Assembly (NCBI GenBank): GCA_017553785.1
Contig: JAFZKD010000042.1
Coordinates: 1 to 46,872 of the forward strand
DNA length: 46,872 nucleotides
Source of the DNA: Muribaculaceae bacterium
GTDB taxonomy: Bacteria; Bacteroidota; Bacteroidia; Bacteroidales; Muribaculaceae
Direction: 5' to 3'
In this document: positions 1,087-36,155 of the stretch, piece after piece
How positions within the stretch are numbered: position 1 is the first letter of the stretch
Layout: every line of letters starts with the position of its first letter
Made by a program: the position numbers and the translations under genes
Notes under the pieces: model-generated
The model's database searches: none
Seen by the model: only the letters and a program-made list of their open reading frames with translations
What the model was told of the DNA's origin: nothing

Positions 1087-1098
1087 TACTCTTGCTTT

Positions 1099-2190: not shown

Positions 2191-2194
2191 CTCT

Positions 2195-2443
2195 TATCAG
2201 ACAACCATAAAACAACTTAATTGACAACAGTGTTTTGATATTTCTAGAATTGTTCCTTTGATATATTAAATCCAAAAAAATCATGATATTTCGGGATTGT
2301 ATTCCATAAAAATCATGATATTTCAGGAATGCGTTCCGTAAAAATCGCAATTTTTCGGGAATTCAAAGAGTATGGGAGACTTCTTTATAGTTTCTCCAGA
2401 TAGTTGTCACCTGTTGTCAATGGGTTGTTATTGTTGTCTGATA
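2195..2443. repeat. MITE-like element with imperfect terminal inverted repeats
   Basis: The 249-bp segment begins with TATCAGACAAC (2195-2205) and ends with its exact reverse complement (2433-2443). A second 11-bp block, ATTGACAACAG (2220-2230), is matched by its reverse complement at 2411-2421. With short indels between the blocks, each arm is about 36 bp. The interior is AT-rich and noncoding and holds a short tandem repeat. No clear target-site duplication is visible, so it could equally be a large transcribed stem-loop closing the upstream operon. It fills most of the gap between the kinase and the next gene. Confidence 0.55.
2281..2364. repeat. Tandem 32-bp degenerate repeat, about 2.6 units
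   Basis: Units start at 2281, 2313 and 2345 with a period of 32 bp. The core is TCATGATATTTC followed by GGRAT and a TTCC-containing tail. The third unit is diverged (TCGCAATTTTTC). All lie inside the inverted-repeat element at 2195-2443. Confidence 0.6.
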
Positions 2444-2493
2444 GACGTGAAATAATGCCATTCGTCACAAATGGGTGTTGTTTGTCCCAGAAA

Positions 2494-2525
2494 GTTGACG
2501 AATTGGGGAATGATTCGTATTTTTG
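2494..2525 (+). promoter_or_regulatory. Bacteroidota-type promoter of the helical-repeat gene
   Basis: A -7 element TATTTTTG lies at 2518-2525. GTTG at 2494-2497 lies 20 bp upstream and fits the -33 TTTG-like position. The start codon is 41 bases beyond. Confidence 0.5.
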
Positions 2526-2566
2526 CAGAGTCAACCGAGGTTATATAATAGATTATCGTTGTCATA

Positions 2567-3076
2567 ATGATTGAGCGACTGAGTCAGACATTTAGTGAGG
2601 GAGGTGCCCAAGAGATTTACCAGGAAGTGAAGTCTGGGGGAGATTTCCTCAGTTTCGCCAGGCAGTACGCTTTCAGTGATGATTATCGGGTGGCGAGGAG
2701 CGCCTTGTGGGGGCTGACCAAGGCCAGCAAAGAGGAACTGTCACAACTCCAGGTGTTATACGATGAACTGATTGACTTGGCCATGCAGACCGATAACTCG
2801 TCATTCAGACGATTGTCACTGAATATCATTGAACGCCTGGAGATGAATGAGGCTAACCTGAGAACAGATTTCTTGGATTTCTGTTTCGAGCATATGATAA
2901 ATCTTGGGGAATTGCCGGGCATTCAGTCGATTTGCATGAAACTCGCCTATCGTATGTGCAAATTCTACCCTGAACTAATGGAGGAGTTGATGCGCACGCT
3001 TGAATCGATGGAGATAGGCTATTACAAACCTGCCGTAAAATGCGTTAGAAACAGGATACTAAACGGTAAGCTTTAG
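2567..3076 (+). CDS. Hypothetical protein, HEAT-like helical repeats
   Basis: This is a 169-residue soluble protein with no signal peptide or membrane segment. It is almost entirely predicted alpha-helical, with alternating Leu-rich amphipathic segments (SFARQYAFSDDYRVARSAL, SFRRLSLNIIERL, LMRTLESMEIGYYKPAVKCV) that look like short HEAT/ARM-type repeats, usually protein-binding scaffolds. I do not recognise a named family and assign no activity. It has its own likely promoter and stands alone: upstream is the inverted-repeat element, downstream a 146-bp gap before the sigma-factor operon. Starts at 2567 ATG, 41 bases after the -7 element. Confidence 0.7.
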   Translation: MIERLSQTFSEGGAQEIYQEVKSGGDFLSFARQYAFSDDYRVARSALWGLTKASKEELSQLQVLYDELIDLAMQTDNSSFRRLSLNIIERLEMNEANLRTDFLDFCFEHMINLGELPGIQSICMKLAYRMCKFYPELMEELMRTLESMEIGYYKPAVKCVRNRILNGKL

Positions 3077-3145
3077 GAAATTCACAAAACCGTTCAGAAT
3101 AAACGGAACATAAAAAAATGACGATTATTCTGTAACTCATGTCAC

Positions 3146-3197
3146 CTTTTGCTTTCTTGACTTGTTATATAAGTGAACCGGCTCAAGAAAACAAAAG
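3146..3197. promoter_or_regulatory. 15-bp inverted repeat upstream of the sigma operon
   Basis: CTTTTGCTTTCTTGA (3146-3160) is repeated in inverted form at 3183-3197 with one mismatch, enclosing 22 bases that contain TTATATAA. It lies 26 bases before the start of the DUF6249 gene. It may be an operator around the promoter or a leader hairpin. The stem is AT-rich and lacks a T tract, so it is a poor terminator candidate. Confidence 0.45.
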
Positions 3198-3222
3198 TTT
3201 AACGTCATAATATTTTAAAAAA

Positions 3223-3669
3223 ATGAATCATTTAGCAGAAATTTTAGTGCCCATTGCATGTGGCTGCATTCTTCCCATTGCCATCATTTGGTTAATCGTT
3301 CGCCGCAGAATGAATGAGACGAACTCCCGCACCCAGATTGCCATGGCGGCCATTGAGAAAAATCCCGACATCGATATTGAGGAACTGCTTAAGAAGGTTT
3401 CCAAGGGAGGAAAATTGCTCAAAGAGAAACTGCTCACGAAACTGCTTTGGGGCACCCTGGCATCACTACTCGGCATCGGATTGATAGGCACAGGGGCATG
3501 GATGGGTTATGTGGGCGGTTCTGTCCCCGACGATATCTATGCAGTCGTGTGCTTTGGCTTGATTGCCCTCGGGGTGGGCATCGCCTTCATGATCAATTAT
3601 TTCGTGGGCAAGAAAATGCTCGCTAAGGAGATAGAGGCCGAGGAGAAAAGGCTGACAGAGCAAGAATAA
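3223..3669 (+). CDS. DUF6249-like inner-membrane protein
   Basis: The 148-residue protein has one N-terminal membrane segment (about residues 5-25, with IVRRRM at its cytoplasmic edge) and two more near residues 75-95 and 105-125. The C-terminus is charged and helical (KEIEAEEKRLTEQE). The layout resembles the DUF6249 family of Bacteroidota, often seen beside ECF sigma factors. The soluble stretch between helices (residues 35-70) contains NPDIDIEELLKK. The next gene follows 3 bases after the stop, so it is the first gene of a three-gene operon with the sigma factor and the two-TM protein. A role in membrane sensing or regulation of the sigma factor is inference from gene order. Confidence 0.7.
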   Translation: MNHLAEILVPIACGCILPIAIIWLIVRRRMNETNSRTQIAMAAIEKNPDIDIEELLKKVSKGGKLLKEKLLTKLLWGTLASLLGIGLIGTGAWMGYVGGSVPDDIYAVVCFGLIALGVGIAFMINYFVGKKMLAKEIEAEEKRLTEQE

Positions 3670-3672
3670 TCT

Positions 3673-4149
3673 GTGACGCGCGAAGTATTCATAGCGCAAG
3701 TCGAGCGTGAGCAAGAGGCCCTGCGAGGCTTCTTGCTTGCCCTGTGCTGTGGCAAGAAGGACGATGCCGATGACCTGGCGCAGGACGCCCTGGTCAAGGC
3801 ATACCTCTCGCTGACGGGTTACCAGGATAAGGGGCATTTCCGCTCGTGGCTCTTCAAGATTGCCCACAACACATTCCTCAACCACAAGGCAAATTGCCGG
3901 ACCATGGATAGCATCGACAAGGCACGGACACTCGTCAGCAGCACGGCTACCGATTCTTCTTTTGAGCACCAAGACCTCTACCTCGCCTTGCGCACCTTGC
4001 CGCCCAAGGAACGCTCTGCCATCACGCTATTCTATCTGAACGGTTACAGCATCAAGGAAATAGCCGCCATTACCGAGGCATCGGAGGACGCCATCAAGCA
4101 ACAACTCTCACGTGGACGTGACAAACTTAAAGCGAAACTACAGTTATGA
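3673..4149 (+). CDS. ECF-type RNA polymerase sigma factor
   Basis: The 158-residue protein has region 2 (about residues 10-80: DDADDLAQDALVKAY, then FRSWLFKIAHNTFLNH) and region 4 (about 100-155: LPPKERSAITLFYLNGY, then a helix-turn-helix IKEIAAITEASEDAIKQQLSRGRDKLK). This is the minimal sigma-70 family ECF layout. The start is GTG at 3673, three bases after the DUF6249 stop; no ATG lies closer. It overlaps the following gene by ATGA at 4146-4149, indicating translational coupling. It should redirect RNA polymerase to a regulon, probably including its own operon. The inverted repeat at 3146-3197 is a candidate control site. Confidence 0.9.
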   Translation: MTREVFIAQVEREQEALRGFLLALCCGKKDDADDLAQDALVKAYLSLTGYQDKGHFRSWLFKIAHNTFLNHKANCRTMDSIDKARTLVSSTATDSSFEHQDLYLALRTLPPKERSAITLFYLNGYSIKEIAAITEASEDAIKQQLSRGRDKLKAKLQL

Positions 4150-4568
4150 ACAAAGATAAAGCCCTAGAGGAACTCTTCCTCGCACATAAGCCGCATTTTG
4201 AGGATAGTGATATCTTCATGGCTTCGCTCACAAAGCGCTTGGACGCCGTGGAGTATATCAAACAGCACCAGGAAGCCACAATCCGTCGTTACAAGATGGT
4301 CATGTTTGTGGCATTGGTCGTGGGCATCATTAGCGGTGCCATCACAATGGCATTTGTTCTTTCCACACCGATTGATGAGCCCCTGTTCTCGTTCCTCGGT
4401 GGGAAAAGCAATAACCACATTGTTGCTGGCTTGATGATCTGGCTCAGTGAAAACTCCCGCCTGATAACTGCGGCTTTTCTTTCGGTGCTAATAAGTCTAG
4501 GCATAATCAGCATCGTCAACAATTATCAGGAAATCAAAGCCATGCGATACTCGCAGCAGGGTAAATGA
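4146..4568 (+). CDS. Two-TM protein coupled to the sigma factor, candidate anti-sigma
   Basis: The 140-residue protein starts in an ATGA overlap with the sigma gene. The first 45 residues are cytosolic and charged (KALEELFLAHKPHF, LTKRLDAVEYIKQHQE). Two membrane helices follow at about 50-72 and 105-125, separated by a loop of about 30 residues. Coupled translation, a short cytosolic N-terminus and a membrane anchor are what an anti-sigma factor would show. However, I see no zinc-binding HxxxCxxC motif and no FecR-like domain, so the role is inferred. The stop is 3 bases from the end of the convergent kinase reading frame. Confidence 0.65.
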   Translation: MNKDKALEELFLAHKPHFEDSDIFMASLTKRLDAVEYIKQHQEATIRRYKMVMFVALVVGIISGAITMAFVLSTPIDEPLFSFLGGKSNNHIVAGLMIWLSENSRLITAAFLSVLISLGIISIVNNYQEIKAMRYSQQGK

Positions 4569-4571
4569 GGA

Positions 4572-5099
4572 CTAGAACCTATCTAGGACTTCTTGCATTT
4601 TCAGTTCATGGTACGAGTCGATAATAGTGACCTGCTCGCCGTTTGCTCAGCAACCCTGAATGTACACCTGATTATCGGTTTTCAGGCTTTGGATTGTGCA
4701 TGACAAGTCATCAAGTCGGGGCTCGATGTCAGAGGCGTGCTCCTTAATTTCTTCGAAGTGGGCATCGATGTATTCATCGGTCATGGCAAGGCAGATAAAG
4801 CGGATAGAGGGCATGTACTGCTCGTCAAAGTCCTGCCTCCAGTTGAACGGAATGTAGCATCCTTCCACAATCAGGTTTTGATTGTTCTCAATGGCGGTTT
4901 TGATCATCTCTCTAACAATGGGCCAAAGATAGGCGGTCAGTTCGTCATCGTCTTCAGGCGTGAGACGGGTGTTGCCGCTGCGAATCAGTCCCATCTTCAG
5001 GTGGTCGATGGAAAGATAGGGATAATGGTATTTCTCCAGCATCCGCTGCGCCAACAGCGTTTTGCCCGTGTGGGACGCGCCCGTGATCAGTATGATCAT
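4572..5099 (-). pseudogene. P-loop kinase (zeta-toxin/AAA-like), in-frame TGA near the 3' end
   Basis: The protein opens with a Walker A motif GASHTGKT (residues 7-14), followed by YLSIDHLK, LIVEGCYIPFNW and IRFICLAMTDEYI. This is the pattern of small P-loop kinases of the zeta-toxin / adenylylsulfate-kinase-like group. Translation reaches TGA at 4647-4649 after 150 residues. The same frame then continues for 24 sensible codons (ANGEQVTIIDSYHEL...EVLDRF) to TAG at 4572, giving about 175 residues, the usual size. A single C-to-T change of an Arg CGA codon would explain it. The shorter product (4647-5099) may still be made. The start overlaps the acetyltransferase stop by ATGA (5096-5099). Substrate unknown. 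Confidence 0.6.
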
Positions 5100-5776
5100 A
5101 GCCTTGCCTTGATTTCTTGCTTAACCTTTTCCAAATCTTTACAGGAGAGGAGGGGCATCAGGGTTTCAATTTCCTCGATGCTTTTGTCCCACCATTTGAA
5201 TTGCAGCAACAAACTGATGAGTTCATCATCAAAACGCATCTTGACTACGCGACAGGGATTGCCCACAGCAATGGCATAAGGCGGGATATCACTTGCCACG
5301 ACCGAGTTTGTCCCGATGATGGCGCCGTCGCCGATGTGCACGCCAGGCATGACGGTCACATTCTGCCCTATCCACACATCATTGCCGATGACGGTATCAC
5401 CTTTCAGCGGCAGTTCTTCCTTGACTGGGGCGATGGCCGTTCCCCAATCACCGCCCATGATGTAAAACGGATAGGTGGTCACACAGTCCATCCTGTGGTT
5501 TGCCCCGTTCATGACAAACTCCACGCCCCGTGCAATCGCGCAAAACTTCCCGATTATCAGTTTGTCGCCGATGAACGGGTAAAAGTGCGTGACGTGCTTC
5601 TCGAACTGGTCAGCACCATCCACGTCATCATAATAGGTGTAATCACCCACGATGATGTTAGGGTTCTTCACCACATTCTTGATAAGACAAAGGCTAGGAA
5701 TCTTGGGATTGGGAAACGCCTCGTTAGAATCAGGTCGGTTGATTATCTTCATATACTCTGGATTATCAGTCGTCAT
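5096..5776 (-). CDS. Vat/CatB-like xenobiotic O-acetyltransferase (left-handed beta helix)
   Basis: The 226-residue protein belongs to the hexapeptide-repeat xenobiotic acyltransferases (Vat streptogramin and CatB chloramphenicol acetyltransferases). It has NPNIIVGDYTYYDD, the catalytic-loop motif VMNGANHRMD with the probable catalytic His94, hexapeptide turns in DTVIGNDVWIGQN and VMPGVHIGDGAIIGTNS, and the C-terminal PYAIAVGNPCR...RFDDE motif. It would acetylate a hydroxyl of a hydrophobic compound with acetyl-CoA. I chose ATG 5776 because it overlaps the nitroreductase stop as ATGA; the in-frame ATG at 5782 is an alternative. It is the second gene of a nitroreductase-acetyltransferase-kinase operon. 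The true substrate cannot be told from sequence; drug resistance is not implied. Confidence 0.8.
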   Translation of the reverse strand: MTTDNPEYMKIINRPDSNEAFPNPKIPSLCLIKNVVKNPNIIVGDYTYYDDVDGADQFEKHVTHFYPFIGDKLIIGKFCAIARGVEFVMNGANHRMDCVTTYPFYIMGGDWGTAIAPVKEELPLKGDTVIGNDVWIGQNVTVMPGVHIGDGAIIGTNSVVASDIPPYAIAVGNPCRVVKMRFDDELISLLLQFKWWDKSIEEIETLMPLLSCKDLEKVKQEIKARL

Positions 5777-6462
5777 GCCCATTGAAAGTTTTCAGTTCCG
5801 GCGCCGATTTCGAAGTGGTATCGGGCGATGCCCAGGTCCATCTGGGTGTAACCGACCAGTGAGAAATGGCGCTTGGCAAGGACGCGTGACTGCTGGCCTT
5901 CTACGGCCGGCAGTAGTTCAAACGAGAACTTCTGTTGATTGATGGCTGTTGGAGCCAGCAATGCTGCCTCCACGCCACGCTTGAACCATTCAGGGCTATC
6001 ATCGCTGACGTTGCTCACCTGGTCGATGCGTTTGATCTTGTGCGACACGCCCTGCGTCTCACCATAGCCGATGGCAATATAGCAACCGATTGTCTCATTT
6101 TCTCCCAGCTCATAAGTTCCGGGTATTTTGGTGTAGCTGAGCCCCACCCAGCATGTGTTTAGCCCGATGGTCTGGGCAAATAGCACCAGTTGTTCGCCGT
6201 AATAGCCGATGCGCTCGTCCAGGTCGTCGGCTTTTTCGCCAATCATGACGAGATAATTGCTTACTCCACGGAACTTGCCGTAGCGGGCAAACGGTCCCAG
6301 GAACGCCTTTGGTTCGTTCCGTATCAACTGGATGTGGAGCCTTCCCTTGCGGTTGAGTTCCGCAATCTTTTCTTCAAGCGCACGTGCATCTGCCTCAGTC
6401 AGCGGATGCTCTTTATATGCCCTCACACTATGGCGGGCTTTTATGGCTTCTTGTAGTGTCAT
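5773..6462 (-). CDS. Nitroreductase family protein, copy 1 of a duplicated pair
   Basis: This 229-residue flavin-type nitroreductase has the N-terminal FMN phosphate motif ARHSVRAY and, unusually late, APTAINQQKFSFEL plus FSLVGYTQMDLGIARYHFEI. This resembles the putative TM1586-type nitroreductases. ATG 6462 was chosen because a longer start at 6477 would sit almost on the predicted transcription start. It differs from the copy at 8126-8815 at about 27 residues (about 88% identical). It leads an operon: its stop overlaps the acetyltransferase start by 4 bp. Expected activity is FMN-dependent NAD(P)H reduction of nitro, quinone or enone compounds in the cytoplasm; the natural substrate is unknown. 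Confidence 0.85.
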   Translation of the reverse strand: MTLQEAIKARHSVRAYKEHPLTEADARALEEKIAELNRKGRLHIQLIRNEPKAFLGPFARYGKFRGVSNYLVMIGEKADDLDERIGYYGEQLVLFAQTIGLNTCWVGLSYTKIPGTYELGENETIGCYIAIGYGETQGVSHKIKRIDQVSNVSDDSPEWFKRGVEAALLAPTAINQQKFSFELLPAVEGQQSRVLAKRHFSLVGYTQMDLGIARYHFEIGAGTENFQWA

Positions 6463-6568
6463 AGTTGATGATATCATTATTCAAGTTTCAAAAATACTCA
6501 TAATCCCCGAGATGGCAAAAAGCAAAACCAAGGTTTTAAGGCCATTTTTACAACCCGCTGGTTATCAG
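5775..6568. repeat. Direct repeat copy 1 (nitroreductase plus promoter)
   Basis: This stretch of about 794 bp matches 8128-8920 in the same orientation. The match covers the whole nitroreductase gene, its promoter and about 70 bp further upstream, ending at GCTGGTTATCAG in both copies. The offset is about 2352 bp throughout. Confidence 0.8.
6489..6519 (-). promoter_or_regulatory. Promoter of nitroreductase operon 1
   Basis: On the minus strand TTTG (6516-6519) and TATTTTTG (6489-6496) are separated by 19 bp, matching the Bacteroidota -33/-7 consensus. The same elements with the same spacing occur in the duplicate at 8840-8870. Confidence 0.65.
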
Positions 6569-6685
6569 TTGCATCTTTAGAGAAGATGACCCGAAAAAGG
6601 TGGAGCGGAAATATTAACGAAACTTAAATGCCATATATCCTGCCTCCAGAGCACTGACGGGGCGACCATTATAAATGATGCGGTG

Positions 6686-7549
6686 CTATTTCACATAGCG
6701 GGAGAAGAACTGCCACACTTCTTCGCCAGTATCGATGTCACCGGTATGCCATGAGTGAACGCCTCCCACGACTTCGTACAACCAGACGTCGCAGCCTGTC
6801 GAGGGACTTGTGTAGCGATGCTTGATGACATGATGACCCCCGTTGCCCAGCAGGCTCATGACGCGCTCGGTCACCTCGTTGGTGCAGCGGTTCTTTGCTA
6901 TCCAGTAGCCGATTGCCACCGGCACTGGCAAGTAGGCTCCCCAACCGCCAGTGTTGTCCATGTCGCCCATCCACTCCGACACACGGTCCTCTGTGCCATG
7001 GATTTCCATGAGAGGGATGGGGCGAGGAGCCTCCATGCGCTCATATATCCATGCCATCGTCAGTCCCGCGATGGGTGCTACCGCCTTGAAAGTCGATTGC
7101 TTACTGTAGGCCATCAGGTAGCACATCTCACCGCCGTTGGACATACCTGTCAAAAAAGTGTTTTCGCGGCTTAGGCGGTAACGCTTCTGTACATATCGGG
7201 CCATACGGCACAGTGCCTTGACGTCATTCACTTTCCATCCTTGTTGGAAGGGATAGCCCACGTTCCAACTTGTTTCCCCTTTGGGGTCTTTTAATCCCTG
7301 TGGTAGGCAGACCGCAAAGCCGTGACGATCAGCAGCGCCAAGCATCGGATTCTCGCGCCAGATGCCAGCTCCGTAACCATGCAGAATAAAAACCGCTGGG
7401 GCTTTATGCTGAAGACCATCAGGCAGGTATATCACCATGTGGCGCATATAGCCGTCCACCTTGACCGAGTCCTCGATGAAGCGTCCAGCCAAGCACGTCA
7501 GCGCACACCAGCACGCCATCATGACCATTAAAGCCCTTTTCAACGTCAT
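6686..7549 (-). CDS. Secreted alpha/beta-hydrolase, LpqC/feruloyl-esterase (CE1) type
   Basis: The 287-residue protein begins with a signal peptide (MTLKRALMVMMACWCALTCLAG) and has the fold of poly(3-hydroxybutyrate) depolymerase-like / CE1 esterases. It shows an oxyanion region VFILHGYGAG, nucleophile elbow GMSNGG (Ser137), acid in HGTEDRV (Asp188) and catalytic His in GGVHSWH (His265 or 268). It probably cleaves an ester in the periplasm or outside the cell. The frame is open further upstream to 7663, but ATG 7549 gives the signal peptide and an ATGA overlap with the ClbS-family stop, so it is the start. It is the last gene of nitroreductase operon 2. The frame stays open for 23 codons past the TAG, probably by chance. 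Confidence 0.8.
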   Translation of the reverse strand: MTLKRALMVMMACWCALTCLAGRFIEDSVKVDGYMRHMVIYLPDGLQHKAPAVFILHGYGAGIWRENPMLGAADRHGFAVCLPQGLKDPKGETSWNVGYPFQQGWKVNDVKALCRMARYVQKRYRLSRENTFLTGMSNGGEMCYLMAYSKQSTFKAVAPIAGLTMAWIYERMEAPRPIPLMEIHGTEDRVSEWMGDMDNTGGWGAYLPVPVAIGYWIAKNRCTNEVTERVMSLLGNGGHHVIKHRYTSPSTGCDVWLYEVVGGVHSWHTGDIDTGEEVWQFFSRYVK

Positions 7550-8091
7550 TTCTTCCCTGCTGCAAACTGTTTTTGATGACTCTTCAGTAGTTTCACGGCT
7601 TGGGAATACGGGCTGGTCGTGATACTCTCGAAGTAGGCCGCCATGCTCGTGGTGTAGGTGCATTTATAGAAACCCTTTGTGAACAGTTCCTCAACCGTGA
7701 AACTATCGGCGAGGCGCAGCATCTCGTCATGCGTCTCGGCCAACAGGCGGTCAGCAGTCTCCAATGGCGTCTGCTGATGCTTCTCGACCAGCATCTTGTC
7801 CATCTCATGATAGTTCTTGCGGTATTCATCAGGCAGATAATCCCTCTGGTGCCCGTCACGGATGTTCTGCACAAACTCCCGCATCAGCACTTGCCACTCG
7901 TGGATGTGGATAAGCAAGTCACGAGTGCAACGGTCATACTGCCACCTGACACCGCACTTCTTTGGGTCGGCAGCAAACTCAAAAGGCGATGAGATTTCCT
8001 CTTGTGACATCTTGGCGATTTGTTCTTTCAGTTTAGCATAGCCGTCCTGCATAGCGGCCAGGAGCTCTTGTTTTGTTTTTGGTTTTGCCAT
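7546..8091 (-). CDS. ClbS/DfsB family (DUF1706) four-helix protein
   Basis: The 181-residue cytosolic protein is all-helical and matches the ClbS/DfsB (DUF1706) family. It opens with the family's MxxPKTKQELLAAMQDGYAKL-like segment, followed by RDLLIHIHEWQVLM and a central LPDEYRKNYHEMDKMLVEKHQ segment. The founding member, ClbS of colibactin producers, protects its host by hydrolysing the DNA-alkylating cyclopropane warhead. Other members, widespread in bacteria that make no colibactin, have unknown substrates. It lies 34 bp downstream of nitroreductase copy 2 and overlaps the esterase start by ATGA, so it is the middle gene of a three-gene operon. Protection against an electrophilic small molecule is a family-based inference. 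Confidence 0.8.
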   Translation of the reverse strand: MAKPKTKQELLAAMQDGYAKLKEQIAKMSQEEISSPFEFAADPKKCGVRWQYDRCTRDLLIHIHEWQVLMREFVQNIRDGHQRDYLPDEYRKNYHEMDKMLVEKHQQTPLETADRLLAETHDEMLRLADSFTVEELFTKGFYKCTYTTSMAAYFESITTSPYSQAVKLLKSHQKQFAAGKK

Positions 8092-8125
8092 TGTTCCAGA
8101 GATTTTTATCGGTTCTTTTTATATT

Positions 8126-8815
8126 TTATGCCCATTCAAAATTTTCTTTTCCGGCACCGATTTCGAAGTGGTAACGGGCGATGCCTAGGTCCATCTGGGT
8201 ATAGCCGACAAGGGAGAAATGGCGTTTGGCAAGGACACGTGCCGGCTGGCCTTTTACGGTCGGCAGTAGTTCAAACGAGAACTTTTGTTGATTGATGGCT
8301 GTTGGAGCCAGCAATGCGGCCTCCACGCCACGCCTGAACCATTCAGGGCTGTCATCGCCGACGTTGCTCACCTGGTCGATGCGTTTGATCTTGTGCGCTA
8401 CGCCCTGCGTTTCACCATAGCCGATGGCGATATAGCAACCGATTATCTCGCCTTCGTCAAGCACATAGGTTCCCGGGATTTTAGTGTAACTGAGGCCCAC
8501 CCAGCAGGTGTTCAGTCCCAGGGTCTGGGCATACAGCACCAGTTGTTCGCCATAGTAGCCGATGCGTTCGTCAAGGTCATCGGCCTTCTTGCCAATCATG
8601 ACGAGGTAGTCGGTCACACCGCTGAACTTGCCATACCGGGCAAACGGTCCTAAGAAAGCCTTCGGCTCATTCCTTATCAACTGGATATGCAAGCGTCCCT
8701 CGAGGTTGAGTTCCGCAATCTTCTCTTCCAACGCTTTTGCATCTGCATCGGTCAGTGGCTGTCCTTTATAAGCCCTCACGCTATGCCGGGTTTGAATGGC
8801 TTCTTGTAGCGTCAT
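8126..8815 (-). CDS. Nitroreductase family protein, copy 2
   Basis: The 229-residue paralogue of the gene at 5773-6462 keeps the same motifs: TRHSVRAYKG at the N-terminus, GLNTCWVGLSYTKIPG in the middle and APTAINQQKFSFEL near residue 180. ATG 8815 is preferred over 8842, because 8842 lies inside the -7 element (8840-8847). It leads an operon with the ClbS-family gene (34-bp gap) and the secreted esterase. Differences from copy 1 are scattered with no frame disruption, so both copies appear functional and under selection. The duplication carried the promoter too. An FMN-dependent NAD(P)H reductase role is expected. Confidence 0.85.
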   Translation of the reverse strand: MTLQEAIQTRHSVRAYKGQPLTDADAKALEEKIAELNLEGRLHIQLIRNEPKAFLGPFARYGKFSGVTDYLVMIGKKADDLDERIGYYGEQLVLYAQTLGLNTCWVGLSYTKIPGTYVLDEGEIIGCYIAIGYGETQGVAHKIKRIDQVSNVGDDSPEWFRRGVEAALLAPTAINQQKFSFELLPTVKGQPARVLAKRHFSLVGYTQMDLGIARYHFEIGAGKENFEWA

Positions 8816-8920
8816 AGTCGTTATTTTATTATCACGTTTCAAAAATACTCATAATCCCCGAAATGACAAAAAGCAAAACGAGGGTTTTGTGGCCAAATCT
8901 TGCAACTTGCTGGTTATCAG
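8128..8920. repeat. Direct repeat copy 2 (nitroreductase plus promoter)
   Basis: Second copy of the roughly 794-bp repeat at 5775-6568. It leads a different pair of genes (ClbS-family and esterase rather than acetyltransferase and kinase). Confidence 0.8.
8840..8870 (-). promoter_or_regulatory. Promoter of nitroreductase operon 2
   Basis: TTTG (8867-8870 on the minus strand), 19 bp, then TATTTTTG (8840-8847). Elements and spacing are identical to copy 1. Confidence 0.65.
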
Positions 8921-9168
8921 AGATGTCTTAAATCGTGATAATCATGAAAGTGGTGGTGCGCGATTGATAAAGAATGTTAAAATCATTTTCTTCTCGCTAC
9001 AAAGATACTATCTGACTCGTTGCAGAGTCAATGTCAAAAAGCAAGACATGAATGGCCAGAGATTTTTTTACATGAATGTCCACGAATGCCCACGAATTAT
9101 TCATGAATGATTGATGATTTTTACATGAATGTCCATGAATCGCCACCCAATTGAAAAGAACTCTGCAA
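8921..9168. repeat. Gene-free stretch with direct repeats
   Basis: No gene is seen here. GATTTTTACATGAATGTCC-like units start at 9061 and 9116 and continue YRAAT-like into CACGAAT or CATGAAT. A shorter related word, CATGAATGGCC, lies near 9047, and ATTCATGAAT between the units is palindromic. The function is unknown; it may be remnants of a dispersed repeat. Confidence 0.4.
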
Positions 9169-9552
9169 TTATGATTGCTTTGTTAGGAAAAGCAACTTAA
9201 AGAGGCGATAGCACAGATAACAGCTCAGCAGCGCTATGAATGTAATAACACTTAAGATGATGGCGCCTGAAACATCCATTGGACCGAACGCATTAGATAA
9301 AGAAATCAGTATTAACATCCAGTCGAAATACAGCAGTGCCAGTGTCGTCAAGATGGCTCCAGTCATGAGAAGCACACTCGCCCACTTCTTGTAGTTGTAC
9401 ATTAGTCGTGGAGCACACATCAGAATGATACAAATTGGCACGACGATGCGAAAGCCTGAATAATAAGTCGGTACAAGACATGCACAGGTGAATCCCAATA
9501 CCAGGAAATAGGTCCCTAAGTTGCGTATGCTTTTTTCTTTCGATGCGTTCAT
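9169..9552 (-). CDS. Hypothetical small membrane protein, about four TM helices
   Basis: The 127-residue protein has a short charged N-terminus (MNASKEKSIRN) and about four hydrophobic segments: residues 12-30, 34-48, 57-75 and 90-115. Family not recognised. The frame is open to 9609, but ATG 9552 sits about 24 bases after a clear -7 element (TAACTTTG), which places the upstream ATG above the transcription start. It stands alone. Its promoter shares a 26-bp block with the promoter at 10997, so the two transcripts may be co-regulated. Confidence 0.6.
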   Translation of the reverse strand: MNASKEKSIRNLGTYFLVLGFTCACLVPTYYSGFRIVVPICIILMCAPRLMYNYKKWASVLLMTGAILTTLALLYFDWMLILISLSNAFGPMDVSGAIILSVITFIALLSCYLCYRLFKLLFLTKQS

Positions 9553-9575
9553 TCTGTTTCTTTCATTGATTATTG

Positions 9576-9600
9576 CAAAGTTACAACATTTCTTGCACAA
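9576..9600 (-). promoter_or_regulatory. Promoter of the small membrane protein, extended motif
   Basis: The minus strand carries TAACTTTG at 9576-9583, preceded by TGCAAGAAATGTTG. The 26-bp block including these matches the one at 10996-11021 with three differences. Confidence 0.55.
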
Positions 9601-9648
9601 GACTGACATTTGTCAAAGGAACTGTCCTTTTGATTTATGGATTAATTT

Positions 9649-10005
9649 TCAAAATTGGATTTTTTGAGGATTGTATTCTAGAATGTCTAATACCCGTTTC
9701 TTGTTTTCATATCCAGTTAACCAGAGTATTTTCTTATTAGAGCCATTTTTATATCCTTGTTCAAGAACAATTAGACTGTCTTTCTCAGGCATAAATTGAT
9801 ATAATCCACTCTGATACTCATAGAGATTAATGAATGTATCAGGTTTTAGGACAATCATTTTCTCATACTCAGGTGCCCCAAGTCTGTCCTTTAGTTCTTC
9901 ATCACTATAAACACCATTGATTTCAACACCATTGTTTTTACAACTAAAAAACAATGATAGCAACATCAATAGCCATAATAATATGTTCTTATATCTCATC
10001 GTCAC
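9649..10005 (-). CDS. Hypothetical small lipoprotein
   Basis: The 118-residue protein has a signal sequence rich in Leu and Phe ending in a lipobox-like SLFFSC, so it is a likely lipoprotein. The rest is a compact domain with ELKDRLGAPEYEKMIVLKPDTFINLYEY, DSLIVLEQGY and RVLDILEYNP, probably beta-rich. No family recognised. An alternative ATG lies two codons in (9999). It follows the secreted protein at 10030-10935 by 24 bp and is probably in the same transcript. Confidence 0.6.
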   Translation of the reverse strand: MTMRYKNILLWLLMLLSLFFSCKNNGVEINGVYSDEELKDRLGAPEYEKMIVLKPDTFINLYEYQSGLYQFMPEKDSLIVLEQGYKNGSNKKILWLTGYENKKRVLDILEYNPQKIQF

Positions 10006-10029
10006 AATAACGGGACGGTTGTTAGAATA

Positions 10030-10935
10030 CTATGGCAATTCGGGATTGTTTTGGCGGCTTATTTCTTCTTCATTGTTTTTCTTGATTTCTTCAATGAGTT
10101 CTTCTGGTAGTATCTCTTCATCGGTAAACTCCTTTTCAATCGATTCCTCATAGAACCTTGTAATCAGTTGATCCACCTCCTCTATGGACATCTTGGGTTC
10201 ACTCAGACCTAAAGCACAGCGAGCCCCATCCATCAAATCCTCATAATCGGGGGTCTGGCCCACGGACCCAAACATGAAATCCATGAATGAAAAGAGCATA
10301 AAGGCATATATCTTGCCTGAAGTATAGCTGTTGTCATTTTTTAGCATATCAGCAATTCCGGTAGCAAAGGCTTGTCGTTTATGAATGCTGTCGGGACCAG
10401 CTAAGTCAATCCAGTCAAATCCAATTGATTGAGGGCAGTAAGCCATAGCGATGCCGAAGAGCGTTCCAAATCGGCAATCATCACCTTCAGCCGGCAACGC
10501 TTCAACGGTCTTTTCGACAAAAACATGAAGCATATCATTGAATATCCCGATGTTGTCGAATAACCCGATGGTGTCTTGCGGCAATTCGACATTGCCTGAG
10601 ACCACTTTATGAACCCCATCATAGACGCAGTCCAAATCGAATGGTTTATTCTCGGGATCAATAATCAGCATCTTCAGGACAAATAGACCAGTGTTAAATC
10701 CTTGTCCATATAAATCTGCATAGATAGAGTCTTGAATGATTGTATTCATGCACTCCTTCAGCCCCCGATAGAATTCTTCGTGGTCGGTCAGTATCAGCAG
10801 GTTGGAGTTCGCCTCAAACGCATTGCGCATGTTGTAATTTCCAAAGGCATAGGAAACAGAATCAAACGCTTCTTGAGCCGAAAGACTATCTACGAAAAAA
10901 CCAACAATAAAGGAAATCAGTATCAATCGTTTCAT
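10030..10935 (-). CDS. Secreted protein resembling the N-terminal domain of FKBP-type isomerases
   Basis: The 301-residue protein has a signal peptide (MKRLILISFIVGFFVDSLSA). The following region (DSVSYAFGNYNMRNAF, EEFYRGLKECMN, LYGQGFNTGLFVLKM) resembles the helical N-terminal dimerisation domain of Bacteroidota FKBP-type peptidyl-prolyl isomerases, where SYALG and DDFIKGL motifs occur. A second segment (FATGIADMLKN) looks similar. No FKBP catalytic domain is present. The C-terminus is highly acidic (EEILPEELIEEIKKNNEEE). The frame is open to 11010, but ATG 10935 gives the signal peptide and lies below the -7 element at 10997-11004. It could be a periplasmic chaperone-like protein; that is a weak inference. 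Confidence 0.6.
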   Translation of the reverse strand: MKRLILISFIVGFFVDSLSAQEAFDSVSYAFGNYNMRNAFEANSNLLILTDHEEFYRGLKECMNTIIQDSIYADLYGQGFNTGLFVLKMLIIDPENKPFDLDCVYDGVHKVVSGNVELPQDTIGLFDNIGIFNDMLHVFVEKTVEALPAEGDDCRFGTLFGIAMAYCPQSIGFDWIDLAGPDSIHKRQAFATGIADMLKNDNSYTSGKIYAFMLFSFMDFMFGSVGQTPDYEDLMDGARCALGLSEPKMSIEEVDQLITRFYEESIEKEFTDEEILPEELIEEIKKNNEEEISRQNNPELP

Positions 10936-10996
10936 AGTGTTCAGTAAGTATAATGAGTACGTTATTTTCTTAAATTCTGTTTGATTTTGATTGCGG

Positions 10997-11021
10997 CAAA
11001 GATACAACAATTCTTGCAGAA
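10997..11021 (-). promoter_or_regulatory. Promoter of the FKBP-N-like gene, extended motif
   Basis: The minus strand has TATCTTTG at 10997-11004 preceded by TGCAAGAATTGTTG, nearly the same block as at 9576-9600. Confidence 0.55.
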
Positions 11022-11076
11022 TACTATTGATCTCAAACCCTTTGTTTACTAGGGCATAAAACTACAACGTGTATCA

Positions 11077-12108
11077 TCACAAATACTGCTGATAGGTTTG
11101 CCAGGCGGAGTGGAGGGCGGTGGTATCGGGGGCGCCGGAGAAGAAGGCGGCTTGGCAGGTGTCCTTGAAGGGCGACCAGTTGCCGCAGATGATGCCGTCG
11201 CGGGCGATAATGGGCTGGAATATCCCGCTGTTGTTGTGGGCGCGGTGGGTGTGCTCCTTGGGGAGGACAATGTCGCGGCTCTTGTAGCCGATGAGGTATT
11301 CGTCATAGGGCGGAATCAGCAAATATTTACCCTTGCGGAAGCCCCGCGTGCGGCAGTCATCGGTCAGGTAGAACTCACGGCCTTGATACTTCTCCACGTG
11401 GATGCTGTTGCCCAACAGGGCGATGCCCTTGCGGCAGTCACTGACGTTCAACCCTGACCACCAGACGAAATCCTCCAGCGTGGCGGGCTGGTGGCTTTGG
11501 AAATACTTGCGGGCAATGCGCATCAACTCCTCGTCGCGTTCTATCTTGCCTGACGGCCTCACCTTATCGGCCGTGAGGGCATAGGTCGCCTTCATGGGCA
11601 GCAGGTCACCGCTGCAGAGGGTGCCAGACATCTCTGCCATGCGGATGTGGTAGGACAATCGATGGTCGTCCATACGGATATCTTTCGCAGCCAACGCCTG
11701 AATGAAATCCTCTTTGGTTACGCTCCCATGATCCGCAGCCGTCTGGGCAAGGATGGCACGAATTGCCATAACCTCCTCGTCGGGGATGGTGATTTTGTTG
11801 CTGTGCATCCAGCCGCGGGTGACAGCCATAGCCTTGGGCGCGCACAAGTCGAGCAGCCACCAGTAATCTTCGGCCGATACCAGTTGCCAGGTGCCGCGCA
11901 TCAGGTGCAGACGGATGATGCGTCCGCTGTCGAAGGCTTTCTTGAATGCCCGTGCCGACGGCTTGCGGGTGCGCATCTCCACAGCCCACCGCATCATGCG
12001 ATACTCCTGGGCCTGCATCGCCCCCATGTGGCTGACTACCTGGACAGGGTCGCTGAACTGAGGAACGATAAGTTGCTGGTTGAGAAGCCTGATGGCAATT
12101 GGATTCAT
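11077..12108 (-). CDS. AlkZ-like winged-helix DNA glycosylase (HTH_42 family)
   Basis: The 343-residue protein matches the HTH_42 / AlkZ-like family, built of tandem winged-helix domains. Near the N-terminus it carries MQAQEYR (Gln32-Ala33-Gln34), which fits the catalytic Q-x-Q motif of AlkZ, the azinomycin-resistance glycosylase that unhooks interstrand crosslinks. E. coli YcaQ/AlkX has Q-x-D instead. Other family stretches are RLHLMRGTWQLVSAEDYWWLL, WWSGLNVSDCRKGI, the C-terminal LLIPPYDEYLIGYKSRD, and NNSGIFQPIIARDGIICGNW. It would excise bulky or crosslinked alkylpurines. Its start lies 16 bp after DUF4298, in an operon with the exported nitroreductase. The specific lesion is unknown. Confidence 0.8.
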   Translation of the reverse strand: MNPIAIRLLNQQLIVPQFSDPVQVVSHMGAMQAQEYRMMRWAVEMRTRKPSARAFKKAFDSGRIIRLHLMRGTWQLVSAEDYWWLLDLCAPKAMAVTRGWMHSNKITIPDEEVMAIRAILAQTAADHGSVTKEDFIQALAAKDIRMDDHRLSYHIRMAEMSGTLCSGDLLPMKATYALTADKVRPSGKIERDEELMRIARKYFQSHQPATLEDFVWWSGLNVSDCRKGIALLGNSIHVEKYQGREFYLTDDCRTRGFRKGKYLLIPPYDEYLIGYKSRDIVLPKEHTHRAHNNSGIFQPIIARDGIICGNWSPFKDTCQAAFFSGAPDTTALHSAWQTYQQYL

Positions 12109-12124
12109 TTGGCGTGGCTATATC

Positions 12125-12430
12125 TCAAAAACGCTCTCCTAGTTCCTTTAAACGCTCATTCAATTCCTTACAGTCGGAGAGCATATTCCAAATGCCGTCC
12201 TCCGAGAGCACTCCTCGCTTCAGCCCCTCGGGCAAGAGCCCAGCCTCATCGTCCTCAAAGTCCTGTCGCCATTCGTTGCTGCCATAGTATTCATCTAGCG
12301 CATCGATGTCCTCTTTTGTGGCTTCATATTTGTCGAGCGCGGCAGACAGCCTTTTCACTGCTGCCAAGGCACGGTCAAGCCGCCGCTCCATCTTGCGGAT
12401 GCGTGCGATCTGTTCTTTGTTGTCGTTCAT
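12125..12430 (-). CDS. DUF4298-like coiled-coil protein
   Basis: The 101-residue acidic protein is helical. Residues 5-45 form a heptad-rich coiled coil (ARIRKMERRLDRALAAVKRL). Then come the DUF4298 signature-like segment ALDEYYGSNEWRQDFEDDEAGLLPEGLKRGVLSEDGIW and a C-terminal helix. Function unknown. It sits 7 bp downstream of the exported nitroreductase and 16 bp upstream of the AlkZ-like gene, so all three share a transcript. Confidence 0.75.
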   Translation of the reverse strand: MNDNKEQIARIRKMERRLDRALAAVKRLSAALDKYEATKEDIDALDEYYGSNEWRQDFEDDEAGLLPEGLKRGVLSEDGIWNMLSDCKELNERLKELGERF

Positions 12431-12437
12431 GATTCCA

Positions 12438-13046
12438 CTACTTGATGTATTTCACTTTGGACTCGTCGCGGGGTTTGGCATCAGGCTGCTCGTCGGGATA
12501 GCCGATGGCGATGATGTAATTCAACTTGTAGTCTTCGGGAATGTCGAGGCGGTCGATGAAGAACTTGCATTGCTCATTTGCCAACAGGAAGCGCACCGGA
12601 CCTGCGAGACAGCAAGTGCCAAGTCCCAACGACTGGGCGGCCAGCATCATGTTTTCGCCCAGCAGACCTGCATCCAGTTCGCCGCCACCCTTTGCTGGCG
12701 TACATACACAGATGAGATTCGGGGCATTGCGGAACATATTCTTGAAGTGCGGGTCGCGTTTCACCTGTTCGGGGTTCTCCCGTTTGAAGACCTCGGTCAC
12801 ATCATTAATCAGCTGTTGGTCTTCCACCACACGGATGATCCACGGTTGGCGGTTCATCCCGCTGGGCGCATTGATGCCTGCGCGAACCACAGCCACCAGT
12901 TTCTCGTGTTCGACAGGCTGGTCAAAGTACTGTCGCACCGAACGACGCGCCATGATGTTGTTGATCACTTCGTTTTCATAAACACTTTGTGCTGTAAGAG
13001 TCAGCACGCCTAACATTGCCATGAGGCATAACATCACGTTTCTCAT
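12438..13046 (-). CDS. Exported nitroreductase family protein
   Basis: The 202-residue nitroreductase starts with a signal peptide (MRNVMLCLMAMLGVLTLTAQ), so it is predicted to work in the periplasm. The core has ARRSVRQYFDQPV (FMN phosphate site), APSGMNRQPWIIRV, GLLGENMMLAAQSLGLGTC and IIAIGYPDEQP, the classic FMN-dependent layout, unlike the two cytosolic copies at 5773 and 8126. Sec export of a flavoprotein is unusual because FMN must be supplied outside the cytoplasm. It is followed by DUF4298 (7-bp gap). The GntP gene ends 45 bp upstream and no promoter was found between, so it may be read from the permease promoter. Confidence 0.8.
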   Translation of the reverse strand: MRNVMLCLMAMLGVLTLTAQSVYENEVINNIMARRSVRQYFDQPVEHEKLVAVVRAGINAPSGMNRQPWIIRVVEDQQLINDVTEVFKRENPEQVKRDPHFKNMFRNAPNLICVCTPAKGGGELDAGLLGENMMLAAQSLGLGTCCLAGPVRFLLANEQCKFFIDRLDIPEDYKLNYIIAIGYPDEQPDAKPRDESKVKYIK

Positions 13047-13091: not shown

Positions 13092-14444
13092 TTAGAGCAG
13101 GATCGCAGCGGCAAGGGTAATGAGTGCTATGGCTGTAATGCCCATGATGAGTGTCATCAGTGTCATGGTGCGGTAACCGTCCCGAGCCTTGATGCCGCCA
13201 AATCCTGTCACTACCCAAAAATAACTGTCGTTGGCGTGAGACACGGTCATCGCGCCGGCACCTATCGCCATTACCACAAGCGTTGCGGCAAGCGGGCTCG
13301 TGAAACCTAGCGCACTCATGATTGATCCCGAATCGTTGAACATGCCCATCATGCTTGCAGTCGTAGTGATGGCCACTGTCGAGGACCCTTGCGCCGACTT
13401 CAGGATAGCTGCTATCAGAAATGGAAATACCACTCCTAACATTTTGAGTGACTCTCCTGAGTCCTTGATAATGTCCACAAAACCGCTTGCCACAACCACG
13501 CTGCCTAACACACCGCCTGCAGCTGTGATGAAGATAATGGGTCCAGCTGTCATGAGCGAAGATTGGGTGATATCGTGGAATTTTCCCAACATTTTCTGCT
13601 GCATCAGCAAAGGAATGCATGTCAGCAATGCGATCATCAAAGCTATGGTGGGTTTGCCAAGGAAAGTGAGTACCTCGGCAATACCAGTCGGCAGTTCGAT
13701 TAGTGAAGCCATGCTACCCAGCGCCATGAGGATGATGGGCAGCACGATGGGTAGGAATGACATCGCGGCACTGCAACGGCACTCGCTCTCGACAATCTGA
13801 CTATCTTCGGTTTCCTCGGTCTCCTGCACCCGTTTGCCGATATAGGCAGTGAAGAAATAGGCTGGAATGAGTGACAAAAGCGATATCACGACACCAAAAC
13901 CTATTACCATTAACAGGTTGTTCTCCAACCCCACCATTCCTGCTGCCGCCACAGGGCCTGGCGTTGGTGGAATGAAAACATGCGAGGCGAACAATCCTCC
14001 AGCTAATGCCAGCATGAGCGGCACGGGCGATGTGCAGGATTGACGCGCCAGCGATTTGCCGATGGGACTAACGAGCACAAAGCCGCTGTCGCAAAACACC
14101 GGTATCGACACGATCCACCCGATGAGCATCATCGCCAACCGCGGATGACGCTTTCCCACCACACGCTCTACGGCCTTGGCCAAAGCCACCGCACCGCCAG
14201 TGCGCTCAAGGATGCTGCCAATCAACGTGCCGAAAATGATGACCAGAGCAATGCCACTGAACACGCCCCCAAAGCCTTTGCCAATCACATCGGGAATATC
14301 GGCAAAGGGAACACCCAGCATCGCCGCTAACAAAATGGCGGTGCCAAGTATCGACAAAAACGGATGCACCTTGAACCGTGCTATCGCTACCACCATGAGT
14401 ATGATAGCTGCGGCAAACAGTAATAATGTGCTGATTGCTGTCAT
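13092..14444 (-). CDS. GntP-family gluconate:H+ symporter-like permease
   Basis: The 450-residue polytopic protein has about 12 hydrophobic segments and GntP-family motifs: GFGGVFSGIALVIIFGTLIGSILERTGGA in the first third, IVSIPVFCDSGFVLVSPIGKSLA, PPTPGPVAAAGM, KSAQGSSTVAITTTASMM and SHANDSYFWVVTGFGG near the end. It would import gluconate or a related sugar acid with protons across the inner membrane. It has its own -7 element and is the first gene of the run continuing into the exported nitroreductase. No sugar-acid kinase or dehydrogenase lies nearby, so the substrate remains open. Confidence 0.9.
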   Translation of the reverse strand: MTAISTLLLFAAAIILMVVAIARFKVHPFLSILGTAILLAAMLGVPFADIPDVIGKGFGGVFSGIALVIIFGTLIGSILERTGGAVALAKAVERVVGKRHPRLAMMLIGWIVSIPVFCDSGFVLVSPIGKSLARQSCTSPVPLMLALAGGLFASHVFIPPTPGPVAAAGMVGLENNLLMVIGFGVVISLLSLIPAYFFTAYIGKRVQETEETEDSQIVESECRCSAAMSFLPIVLPIILMALGSMASLIELPTGIAEVLTFLGKPTIALMIALLTCIPLLMQQKMLGKFHDITQSSLMTAGPIIFITAAGGVLGSVVVASGFVDIIKDSGESLKMLGVVFPFLIAAILKSAQGSSTVAITTTASMMGMFNDSGSIMSALGFTSPLAATLVVMAIGAGAMTVSHANDSYFWVVTGFGGIKARDGYRTMTLMTLIMGITAIALITLAAAILL

Positions 14445-14625: not shown

Positions 14626-15492
14626 TCACACTTCCTCTTCATCGTTGATGCTCAATGGGGGTGGAGTGGGAATGCCGGTTTCCTCGGCCAATACCTCAGG
14701 CACCCAAGACCCGGTGTGGGTCAGTTTGATGACTTGCTTTACAACGAAGAATGTCAGTCCAGCGCCAACAACGAATAACAACAGGTTGACAGGCAGCGAG
14801 AAGGGAGAATCGCACGAGGCGTCGTTGGTGATGATGAACATGATTGTTGAGGTCAGGTTGTTCAAAGCGTGAACAAAAATGCAATACCAGATGTTGCGTG
14901 TGCGGTAGTAAATCCATCCGAGGAAAAGTCCGATGATCAATGCGGTGACGCCCTGAGTAAAGTTGAGGTGTGCGATAGCAAAGACAACTGCCGAAATCAC
15001 GATGGCCACCCATGGCTTCTTGCCGGCTTCCAGCAACTTGCGCTCAATGGTTCCCCTGAAGATTCCCTCCTCAAGCAGTGGTGCCAAAATACAAGCACTG
15101 ATAATGCCCAGCGGGTTCTTGAGCATGTCACCGAGGTCCTTCATGAGATCTAATTCCCATTCGAAATGAGGCAGATAGACCTGAATGGTTGATAAAACCA
15201 ACATGACTCCAATACATCCAATAGCTGCCCATAAGAACATTTTGCTTGTGTTTTGCTCCTTCACAAGGCTGTAATTGCACCATTTGTTCTTCCAGAAGAG
15301 AAAGAGAGGAAGCAACTGAGATCCGATTAGTATGGTAATCTGACTCCACATGTCCAACCCAACATCATCTGTCATGGCAGCAGAATTGTTGAGGACGATG
15401 GTGTCGAATAAAACGACGGGAAACGCAAACAAGATTGCGCCGACAATAGAAAGCCCGAAATAAATCAATAAATACTTAAGAGCAGTTTTCAT
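14626..15492 (-). CDS. CPBP (CAAX/Rce1-like) intramembrane metalloprotease
   Basis: The 288-residue polytopic protein (about seven to eight membrane segments) carries the CPBP/ABI motifs: EEGIFRGTIER (the EExxxR motif), FAIAHLNF and FVHALNN, whose Glu and His residues form the metal site within the membrane. Bacterial members act in bacteriocin immunity or protein processing, mostly uncharacterised. The C-terminus is acidic and cytosolic (SINDEEEV). It is divergent from the S24 regulator gene, with a 247-bp shared intergenic region and its own terminator downstream, so it is probably monocistronic. No bacteriocin precursor was seen nearby. Confidence 0.85.
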   Translation of the reverse strand: MKTALKYLLIYFGLSIVGAILFAFPVVLFDTIVLNNSAAMTDDVGLDMWSQITILIGSQLLPLFLFWKNKWCNYSLVKEQNTSKMFLWAAIGCIGVMLVLSTIQVYLPHFEWELDLMKDLGDMLKNPLGIISACILAPLLEEGIFRGTIERKLLEAGKKPWVAIVISAVVFAIAHLNFTQGVTALIIGLFLGWIYYRTRNIWYCIFVHALNNLTSTIMFIITNDASCDSPFSLPVNLLLFVVGAGLTFFVVKQVIKLTHTGSWVPEVLAEETGIPTPPPLSINDEEEV

Positions 15493-16441: not shown

Positions 16442-16450
16442 GAGAACCTA

Positions 16451-17674: not shown

Positions 17675-17703
17675 ATCCAGAAATCAATAATCAACGATGT
17701 AAT

Positions 17704-21373: not shown

Positions 21374-21426
21374 GCTTCTTGACAGTTTGGCAGTTTTTGA
21401 GCGAAAACCACATTTTTGGCAAAAAA

Positions 21427-21458
21427 TTTGCAGGGTTGCCCCAAATGCACTACTTTCG
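21427..21458 (+). promoter_or_regulatory. Promoter of frr
   Basis: TTTG at 21427-21430, 20 bp, then TACTTTCG at 21451-21458. It lies downstream of the membrane-protein stop, so frr has its own promoter. Confidence 0.65.
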
Positions 21459-21506
21459 TGACCAATAAAACAAATACATAATAACAAATCAGCAAAACAG
21501 AAGATT

Positions 21507-22067: not shown

Positions 22068-22112
22068 TTTTGCACTCCCAAGAGATTTTACGGCTGAAGC
22101 CGTTATCATAAA

Positions 22113-22152
22113 ACGTTGCGGCAATGACCATAGTGCCGCAACGTGTTTTTTT
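22113..22152 (+). terminator. Rho-independent terminator of frr
   Basis: An 11-bp perfect stem ACGTTGCGGCA (22113-22123) / TGCCGCAACGT (22134-22144) with a 10-nt loop is followed by seven T residues. Confidence 0.9.
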
Positions 22153-22193
22153 ATAACTGAAGATCGATTAACGTTAAAAAACCACCATACGAT

Positions 22194-23909: not shown

Positions 23910-23939
23910 GGTTCTTTGTCCTAAACATGGGCTTCTTTC

Positions 23940-36056: not shown

Positions 36057-36073
36057 AATCTTTTTCTCTTTAA

Positions 36074-36113: not shown

Positions 36114-36155
36114 ATTCTCCTGTGTTGAATGATAATTAAATGAATATCGGGATGA

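Follow-up and report, generated by a model that had tools for sequence, protein, structure and literature searches.

Introduction

AlkZ-like (AZL) DNA glycosylases of the HTH_42 superfamily have so far been studied mainly in actinobacterial antibiotic producers. A (Q/H)-aliphatic-Q motif marks this class where YcaQ-like enzymes carry QxD, and in Streptomyces clusters AlkZ-like genes neighbour those of DinB-type hydrolases and alpha/beta-fold hydrolases (PMC9040887). Homologues of clbS lie in random neighbourhoods in bee-gut genomes and are still protective, according to a preprint (PMC12990990). Here we analyse a stretch of 46,872 nucleotides from a Muribaculaceae bacterium (assembly GCA_017553785.1, contig JAFZKD010000042.1), hereafter the window, in which genes of both families stand among nitroreductase (NR) genes and a gene for a streptogramin-type acetyltransferase. 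An earlier reading of the letters alone, the original prediction, had taken nine of its genes for a possible genotoxin/electrophile defence cluster. The locus is real and partly conserved, and two of its sub-modules recur above chance; on present evidence it is not a new integrated defence system. We think it probable, though far from assured, that the locus is a chromosomal interval of changing cargo, drawn from a common pool of genes that protect against xenobiotics and genotoxins, and not one dedicated pathway.

The host genome is a 2.5 Mb draft with 80% completeness and 5% contamination, and the bacterium is probably a rumen dweller, given the ruminant-gut records of its relatives. Relatives' genomes and loci carry G and L numbers, and the genes on these loci were predicted with a home-made codon-bias caller.

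Gene content of the locus

The genes at issue, with two promoter matches, are as follows.

4647..5099, minus strand: small P-loop kinase (KIN), ~25 residues shorter than its homologues
5096..5776, minus strand: Vat-like xenobiotic (streptogramin A type) O-acetyltransferase, by profile and solved-structure matches
5773..6462, minus strand: NR1, TM1586-type nitroreductase-fold protein (PF14512)
6489..6519, minus strand: Bacteroides-type promoter match upstream of NR1, by pattern search
6686..7549, minus strand: esterase of PHB-depolymerase / alpha-beta hydrolase type, by profile; signal-peptide-like start by eye
7546..8091, minus strand: ClbS/DfsB family protein (DUF1706), by PF08020 and predicted fold
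8126..8815, minus strand: NR2, paralogue of NR1 (PF14512)
8840..8870, minus strand: Bacteroides-type promoter match upstream of NR2, by pattern search
11077..12108, minus strand: AlkZ-like DNA glycosylase with a QAQ motif (Q32, Q34; PF06224)
12125..12430, minus strand: DUF4298 protein (PF14131)
12438..13046, minus strand: NR3, nitroreductase (PF00881); signal-peptide-like start by eye

The nine genes named in the original prediction are all open frames on the minus strand, and each found its family in the profile scan. The ATGA overlaps that it placed in the first two operons lie at NR1/Vat (5773-5776), Vat/kinase (5096-5099) and ClbS/esterase (7546-7549). The kinase is present as proposed, but its frame ends at 4647 and not at 4572. 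The three predicted nitroreductases are of two kinds: NR1 and NR2 match PF14512 (TM1586_NiRdase; Pfam, 3.4e-69 and 9.8e-67), NR1 also adopting the 1vkw fold of the TM1586 type, while NR3 matches PF00881 (7.3e-26). On their sequences, NR1 and NR2 are TM1586-type paralogues from an old duplication and not NfsB-type nitroreductases; they share 85.7% DNA identity, and the duplicated stretch takes in the promoter region. Six exact matches to what we take to be the Bacteroides-type promoter consensus occur in the window against 0.5 expected by chance, and two of them sit just upstream of NR1 and NR2. As NR3 is of another family and has a start that resembles a signal peptide by eye, the three proteins may work in two compartments. 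A literature search on the function of the TM1586 type gave nothing relevant.

The AlkZ-like protein matches PF06224 (1e-46; 160.5 bits against a cut-off of 25.9). Its motif Q32-A33-Q34 is invariant in 13 aligned sequences and aligns with the QAQ of the solved AlkZ 5uuj. Literature searches found no paper on an HTH_42 glycosylase in Bacteroidetes and, judged by title, none on topic for an AlkZ/AlkD neighbourhood with a nitroreductase. In L198, L201, L221 and L215, AlkZ has a carbonic-anhydrase-like gene 9 to 534 bases away.

ClbS matches PF08020 (DUF1706; 1.9e-33, 116.2 bits against a cut-off of 24.2). Its predicted model is of modest confidence (pLDDT 62.5) and shows the four-helix ClbS/DfsB fold; a sequence search of the PDB matched no chain. 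The esterase scores above the Pfam cut-offs for Peptidase_S9 and Esterase_PHB and below the NCBIfam ones.

Two known kinds of locus were considered for the window and rejected. No polyketide or peptide synthase was found among the genes of this contig scanned by Pfam, which argues against a biosynthetic self-resistance cluster. PADLOC models matched none of eight proteins (NR2 was not included), which argues against a known anti-phage defence system.

Conservation of the set and recurrent pairs

The genus sample comprised 101 genomes, with ClbS in 50, NR in 84, AlkZ in 47, NR3 in 23 and a Vat-like gene in 32. Pairs were counted within 15 kb, with the own genome included throughout and 30 Vat genomes used, after exclusion of two Vat hits of 35-40% identity (G180, G079), second short ClbS rows (G194, G178) and a second Vat piece (G191). 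The original prediction proposed a search of gut Bacteroidales genomes for ClbS, AlkZ and nitroreductase genes within this distance of each other; only one of the 32 genus genomes that hold all three has them so placed, and it is the own one. A single conserved ClbS-AlkZ-nitroreductase system is therefore rejected. The pairs that include ClbS were also rare (ClbS-NR 1/43, ClbS-AlkZ 3/35, ClbS-NR3 1/16, ClbS-Vat 1/22). Other pairs were found more widely: NR-AlkZ in 14/41, NR-NR3 in 18/23, AlkZ-NR3 in 10/22, NR-Vat in 6/27, Vat-AlkZ in 4/19 and Vat-NR3 in 4/10. DUF4298 adjoins AlkZ or NR directly in 14 of 20 NR loci. The outcome that the original prediction named as its refutation, a neighbourhood not conserved beyond this strain, thus does not apply to NR-AlkZ-DUF4298-NR3 or, as shown below, to Vat-kinase, but it does apply to the ClbS-containing set.

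The NR-AlkZ pair was also sought at AlkZ loci outside the genus. These came from the best 80 of 513 AlkZ matches, found regardless of NR, from which 47 loci in 46 genomes were hand-picked after the proximity of NR to AlkZ was known; genus members, loci belonging to the interval, and contigs that were short or duplicates were left out, and among these NR lay near AlkZ only at the interval loci. The 46 genomes include 23 that hold NR, in 30 copies, and NR lies within 10 kb of AlkZ in six of the 46, against 0.19 genomes expected at random. This figure, like the other Poisson and hypergeometric ones given here, ignores kinship and has no control family behind it. By shared neighbours the six genomes represent three contexts (L156/L171/L199, L150/L196 and L209). 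AlkZ comes first in L156, L171 and L199, with NR 11 to 15 bases away; in L196 NR is on the strand opposite to AlkZ.

At the level of the order, 246 genomes besides the own one were compared, among which NR occurs in 8, DUF4298 in 8, full-length ClbS in 14 (three short or partial hits, in G387, G371 and G227, were excluded) and AlkZ in 27. The DUF4298 search covered 344 genomes, 12 of them with a match; G532, G574 and G594 were left out, and the eight non-own hits were assigned to the 247-genome set by inference. NR, DUF4298 and ClbS are held together by G215, G411, G421 and G428, which belong to four other families, and the first three hold AlkZ too. The NR-DUF4298 overlap is 4 against 0.26 expected (8 x 8 / 246; hypergeometric p 3e-5). 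The NR-ClbS and DUF4298-ClbS overlaps are 4 each (p 4e-4), and those with AlkZ are 4 for DUF4298 (p 0.006), 3 for NR (p 0.046) and 4 for ClbS (p 0.054).

These overlaps bear on the idea, put forward in the original prediction, of a dedicated, integrated genotoxin-defence system, in which all nine genes would act in one response that combines reduction, acetylation or hydrolysis of electrophiles with repair of the DNA damaged by them. The four multi-gene genomes would fit it, as would G215, where ClbS and AlkZ are 2.3 kb apart (L126, contig 9), and so would G131 and G168, where ClbS, AlkZ and a DNA_alkylation-family gene share the interval, in G131 together with DUF4298. The hydrolase neighbours of AlkZ-like genes in Streptomyces also fit (PMC9040887) and offer a precedent for the gene company in the window. 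However, the triad stands together only in the own genome, and among the four multi-gene genomes the G215 pair is the only one within 15 kb (ClbS and NR are 23 kb apart in G411). Genes that co-occur but lie so far apart suggest a common gene pool, and perhaps a common niche, rather than one operon; such a niche could by itself produce the overlaps. Moreover, NR1 and NR2 each have a promoter match of their own, and two compartments are likely. We therefore regard an integrated system as highly improbable.

The Vat-like gene, its kinase and DUF4298

The Vat-like protein is a hexapeptide acetyltransferase and is described as Vat-like since it scores 292.3 bits with the NCBIfam Vat model NF000311, just short of the cut-off of 300. 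By sequence, its nearest solved structures are streptogramin/virginiamycin A acetyltransferase chains (5e-58 to 2e-57), and the next nearest are CatB-type (7e-48). The gene shares 99.4% DNA identity over 681 bases with the copy in G145 (L086), whereas the sigma factor and its partner, the kinase, NR1, AlkZ and NR3 share 82-87% with their G145 counterparts and DUF4298 74%, which points to a recent between-species replacement of the Vat gene alone. A plasmid search with Vat returned 243 records; identity was 60-80% for 242 and 80-90% for the remaining one, and in no case did the match span 80% of the gene. In L133 (G312, another family) a ClbS homologue lies near a Vat-like gene, with one small gene between.

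The kinase scores 24.9 bits with AAA_33, below the Pfam cut-off of 27, and its frame ends at 4647, ~25 residues before its homologues do, so that the window kinase may be impaired. Its relatives give weak AAA_33 matches, and one relative just passes the cut-off of a chloramphenicol-phosphotransferase-like model (23.9 against 22 bits); the long kinase of L189 matched no PDB chain by sequence. The genus gave 34 Vat rows, 25 of which, besides the own one, were read (seven others were not), and four loci from other genomes were added; not all of these loci are independent. Where downstream DNA was present, a kinase homologue follows Vat on the same strand at 0 to 24 bases in 17 of 25 loci, in several distinct gene contexts, and is missing in eight; four further loci end at a contig edge. 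In L207 (18397-19173) the kinase frame runs on into a DUF4298 domain (2.1e-18), and in L239 (5227-6309) into a GNAT acetyltransferase domain (4.8e-9). The former fusion links the kinase to DUF4298, which in the window (PF14131, 3.7e-26) adjoins AlkZ. Literature searches found no relevant paper on a Vat-kinase pairing and none on DUF4298.

Vat, kinase and DUF4298 could be the sole true module here, a two- or three-protein antibiotic-modifying unit amid otherwise unrelated cargo. The frequent placing of the kinase directly after Vat, the two fusions, the phosphotransferase-like relative and the recent replacement of Vat are all in keeping with this. Set against it are the eight Vat loci without the kinase, the weak matches of kinase homologues to known kinases, the shortening of the window kinase, the position of the window DUF4298, which adjoins AlkZ and is separated from the kinase by 7 kb, and the single occurrence of the DUF4298 fusion. 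We hold this account to be doubtful but worth keeping in view.

A variable interval between flanking genes

The genes described above share one interval with other cargo, and its surroundings are as follows.

1..4568, plus strand: left flank, with a GH109-type oxidoreductase (truncated where the window ends), an APH-type kinase, an unmatched protein, a DUF6249 protein and an ECF sigma factor with its partner
9649..10005, minus strand: short protein, no Pfam match
10030..10935, minus strand: protein, no Pfam match (scanned as 10030-10971)
13092..14444, minus strand: GntP-type permease, interval cargo, by Pfam scan
14626..15492, minus strand: CPBP/Rce1-like membrane protease, interval cargo, by Pfam scan
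15740..18657, plus strand: right flank, with an XRE/S24 regulator, an M16 peptidase and a glycosyltransferase

Beyond the right flank, a ribosome recycling factor gene stands amid three DUF6056 genes (19823-25643), and two POT-family transporter genes adjoin each other at 34521-37721.

The interval measures ~11 kb in the window, 13 kb in G168, 17 kb in G212 and 27 kb in G170. Some of the left-flank genes, followed by differing cargo, were found at 18 of 20 NR loci and at the three ClbS-esterase loci of the genus; the two NR loci where the left flank was not seen are L094, whose contig ends, and L103. The right flank was found at L182 (G168) alone among loci L037-L225 and in two of 13 further-extended stretches (L262, from G170, and L268, from G212), that is, in three of 14 relatives. 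In G131 and G168 the interval lacks NR and carries the esterase-ClbS pair, AlkZ and a DNA_alkylation-family gene along with genes for a second sigma factor, a YjbR protein, a permease and carbonic anhydrase; DUF4298 is present in G131 only. The DNA_alkylation family (PF08713), which we take to be that called AlkC/AlkD, is represented in 14 of 20 NR loci (stretches up to 20 kb, one representative Pfam-scanned); none was called in the interval of the window.

The ClbS-esterase pair is common to only three relatives (G131, G163 and G168). When 23 window genes were tested against the 49 other ClbS loci of the genus, 46 of these loci gave a hit to ClbS alone, save for one match to a sigma factor at 34%. 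A gene for an HflX-type GTPase lies near ClbS at 27 of the 49, where the flanks of the interval are absent, and only three of the 49 are in the interval; ClbS as founder of the locus is therefore rejected.

Interpretation

Under the reading that we favour, that of cargo drawn from a shared pool, related species carry different selections of small, mostly same-strand genes, many of them protective by family, and each gene or pair would form an autonomous resistance or repair unit. A genotoxin or electrophile role for this cargo is plausible from what is known of the AlkZ and ClbS families and of the DNA_alkylation-family genes in relatives; the chemical activities, cell locations and any selection by natural-product toxins are read from homology. 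The AlkZ-like glycosylase would excise bulky or cross-linked purine adducts, and the ClbS-type protein could neutralise a DNA-alkylating metabolite or shield the DNA. Vat may acetylate a streptogramin-like hydroxyl, with the kinase as its partner, while the TM1586- and PF00881-type flavoproteins would reduce quinone or nitro electrophiles and the esterase would hydrolyse esters outside the cytoplasm.

Several observations weigh against this reading. In the stretches examined, 11 of 14 relatives showed no right flank, and the turnover has neither an integrase among the interval genes scanned nor a tRNA in the interval to account for it. No protective role is obvious for the GntP permease of the window, nor for the GDPD, carbonic anhydrase, xanthine-type permease and tricorn-type protease in the intervals of relatives. 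By eye, NR3 and the esterase look like exported proteins, and AlkZ and ClbS like cytoplasmic ones. The 14/41 NR-AlkZ genomes are not 14 independent events, as synteny inside one genus is partly shared ancestry. Finally, neither NR nor DUF4298 is present at 19 of the 20 AlkZ loci elsewhere in the genus (L124 has NR ~10.6 kb off, and the contig of L106 spans only 6 kb).

The last of these points, like the cargo that lacks a protective role, would also be expected if shared ancestry and chance had brought together genes of unrelated house functions, with no joint anti-toxin role. The reported random placing of ClbS homologues in bee-gut genomes agrees with this as well (PMC12990990), and is a precedent for single-gene mobility. 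Yet AlkZ and NR are adjacent in other contexts, Vat and the kinase are paired in several, and the kinase is fused to DUF4298, which makes ancestry and chance an unlikely explanation for the whole.

A bolder extension of the shared-pool reading is that rumen Bacteroidales have in common a modular hotspot defence against DNA-reactive and acyl-modifiable natural products, built of reusable two- or three-gene units that travel between families. AlkZ with a TM1586-type flavoprotein would combine adduct excision with electrophile reduction, and Vat with the kinase and DUF4298 would tag one compound twice; the units would move jointly between families under selection by the same rumen toxins. We consider this quite unlikely as it stands.

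If the shared-pool reading itself is right, AlkZ-like cross-link repair glycosylases would belong to the accessory defence of ruminant gut commensals, which would imply unseen DNA-damaging metabolites there, and new resistance enzymes could be sought in the interval. Two leads stand out as most useful, the AlkZ-flavoprotein pair and the linkage of Vat, kinase and DUF4298, the latter being a first testable handle on DUF4298.

Comparison with known systems

The ClbS/DfsB family includes the colibactin self-resistance protein and the products of clbS-like genes in non-producers. The model of the ClbS-type protein has ClbS (7mtl, 6anr, 5cof) and DfsB (5civ) as its nearest folds, while identity to these structures is 10-14% over the aligned part and no synthase was found among the window genes scanned. 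With the AZL glycosylases, such as Streptomyces AlkZ and TxnU/LldU (PMC9040887, PMC8934636), the AlkZ-like protein has PF06224 and the QxQ motif in common, and its gene, like theirs, is accessory and variable in position. Unlike the Streptomyces setting, however, no biosynthetic synthase was found in the window, and the protein scores ~62 bits to AlkZ. NR1 combines PF14512 with the fold of the TM1586-type nitroreductase 1vkw. The Vat-like protein is alike near full length to the Vat streptogramin A acetyltransferases, including solved ones, but differs from known Vat enzymes in scoring below the family cut-off and in being followed by a kinase gene.

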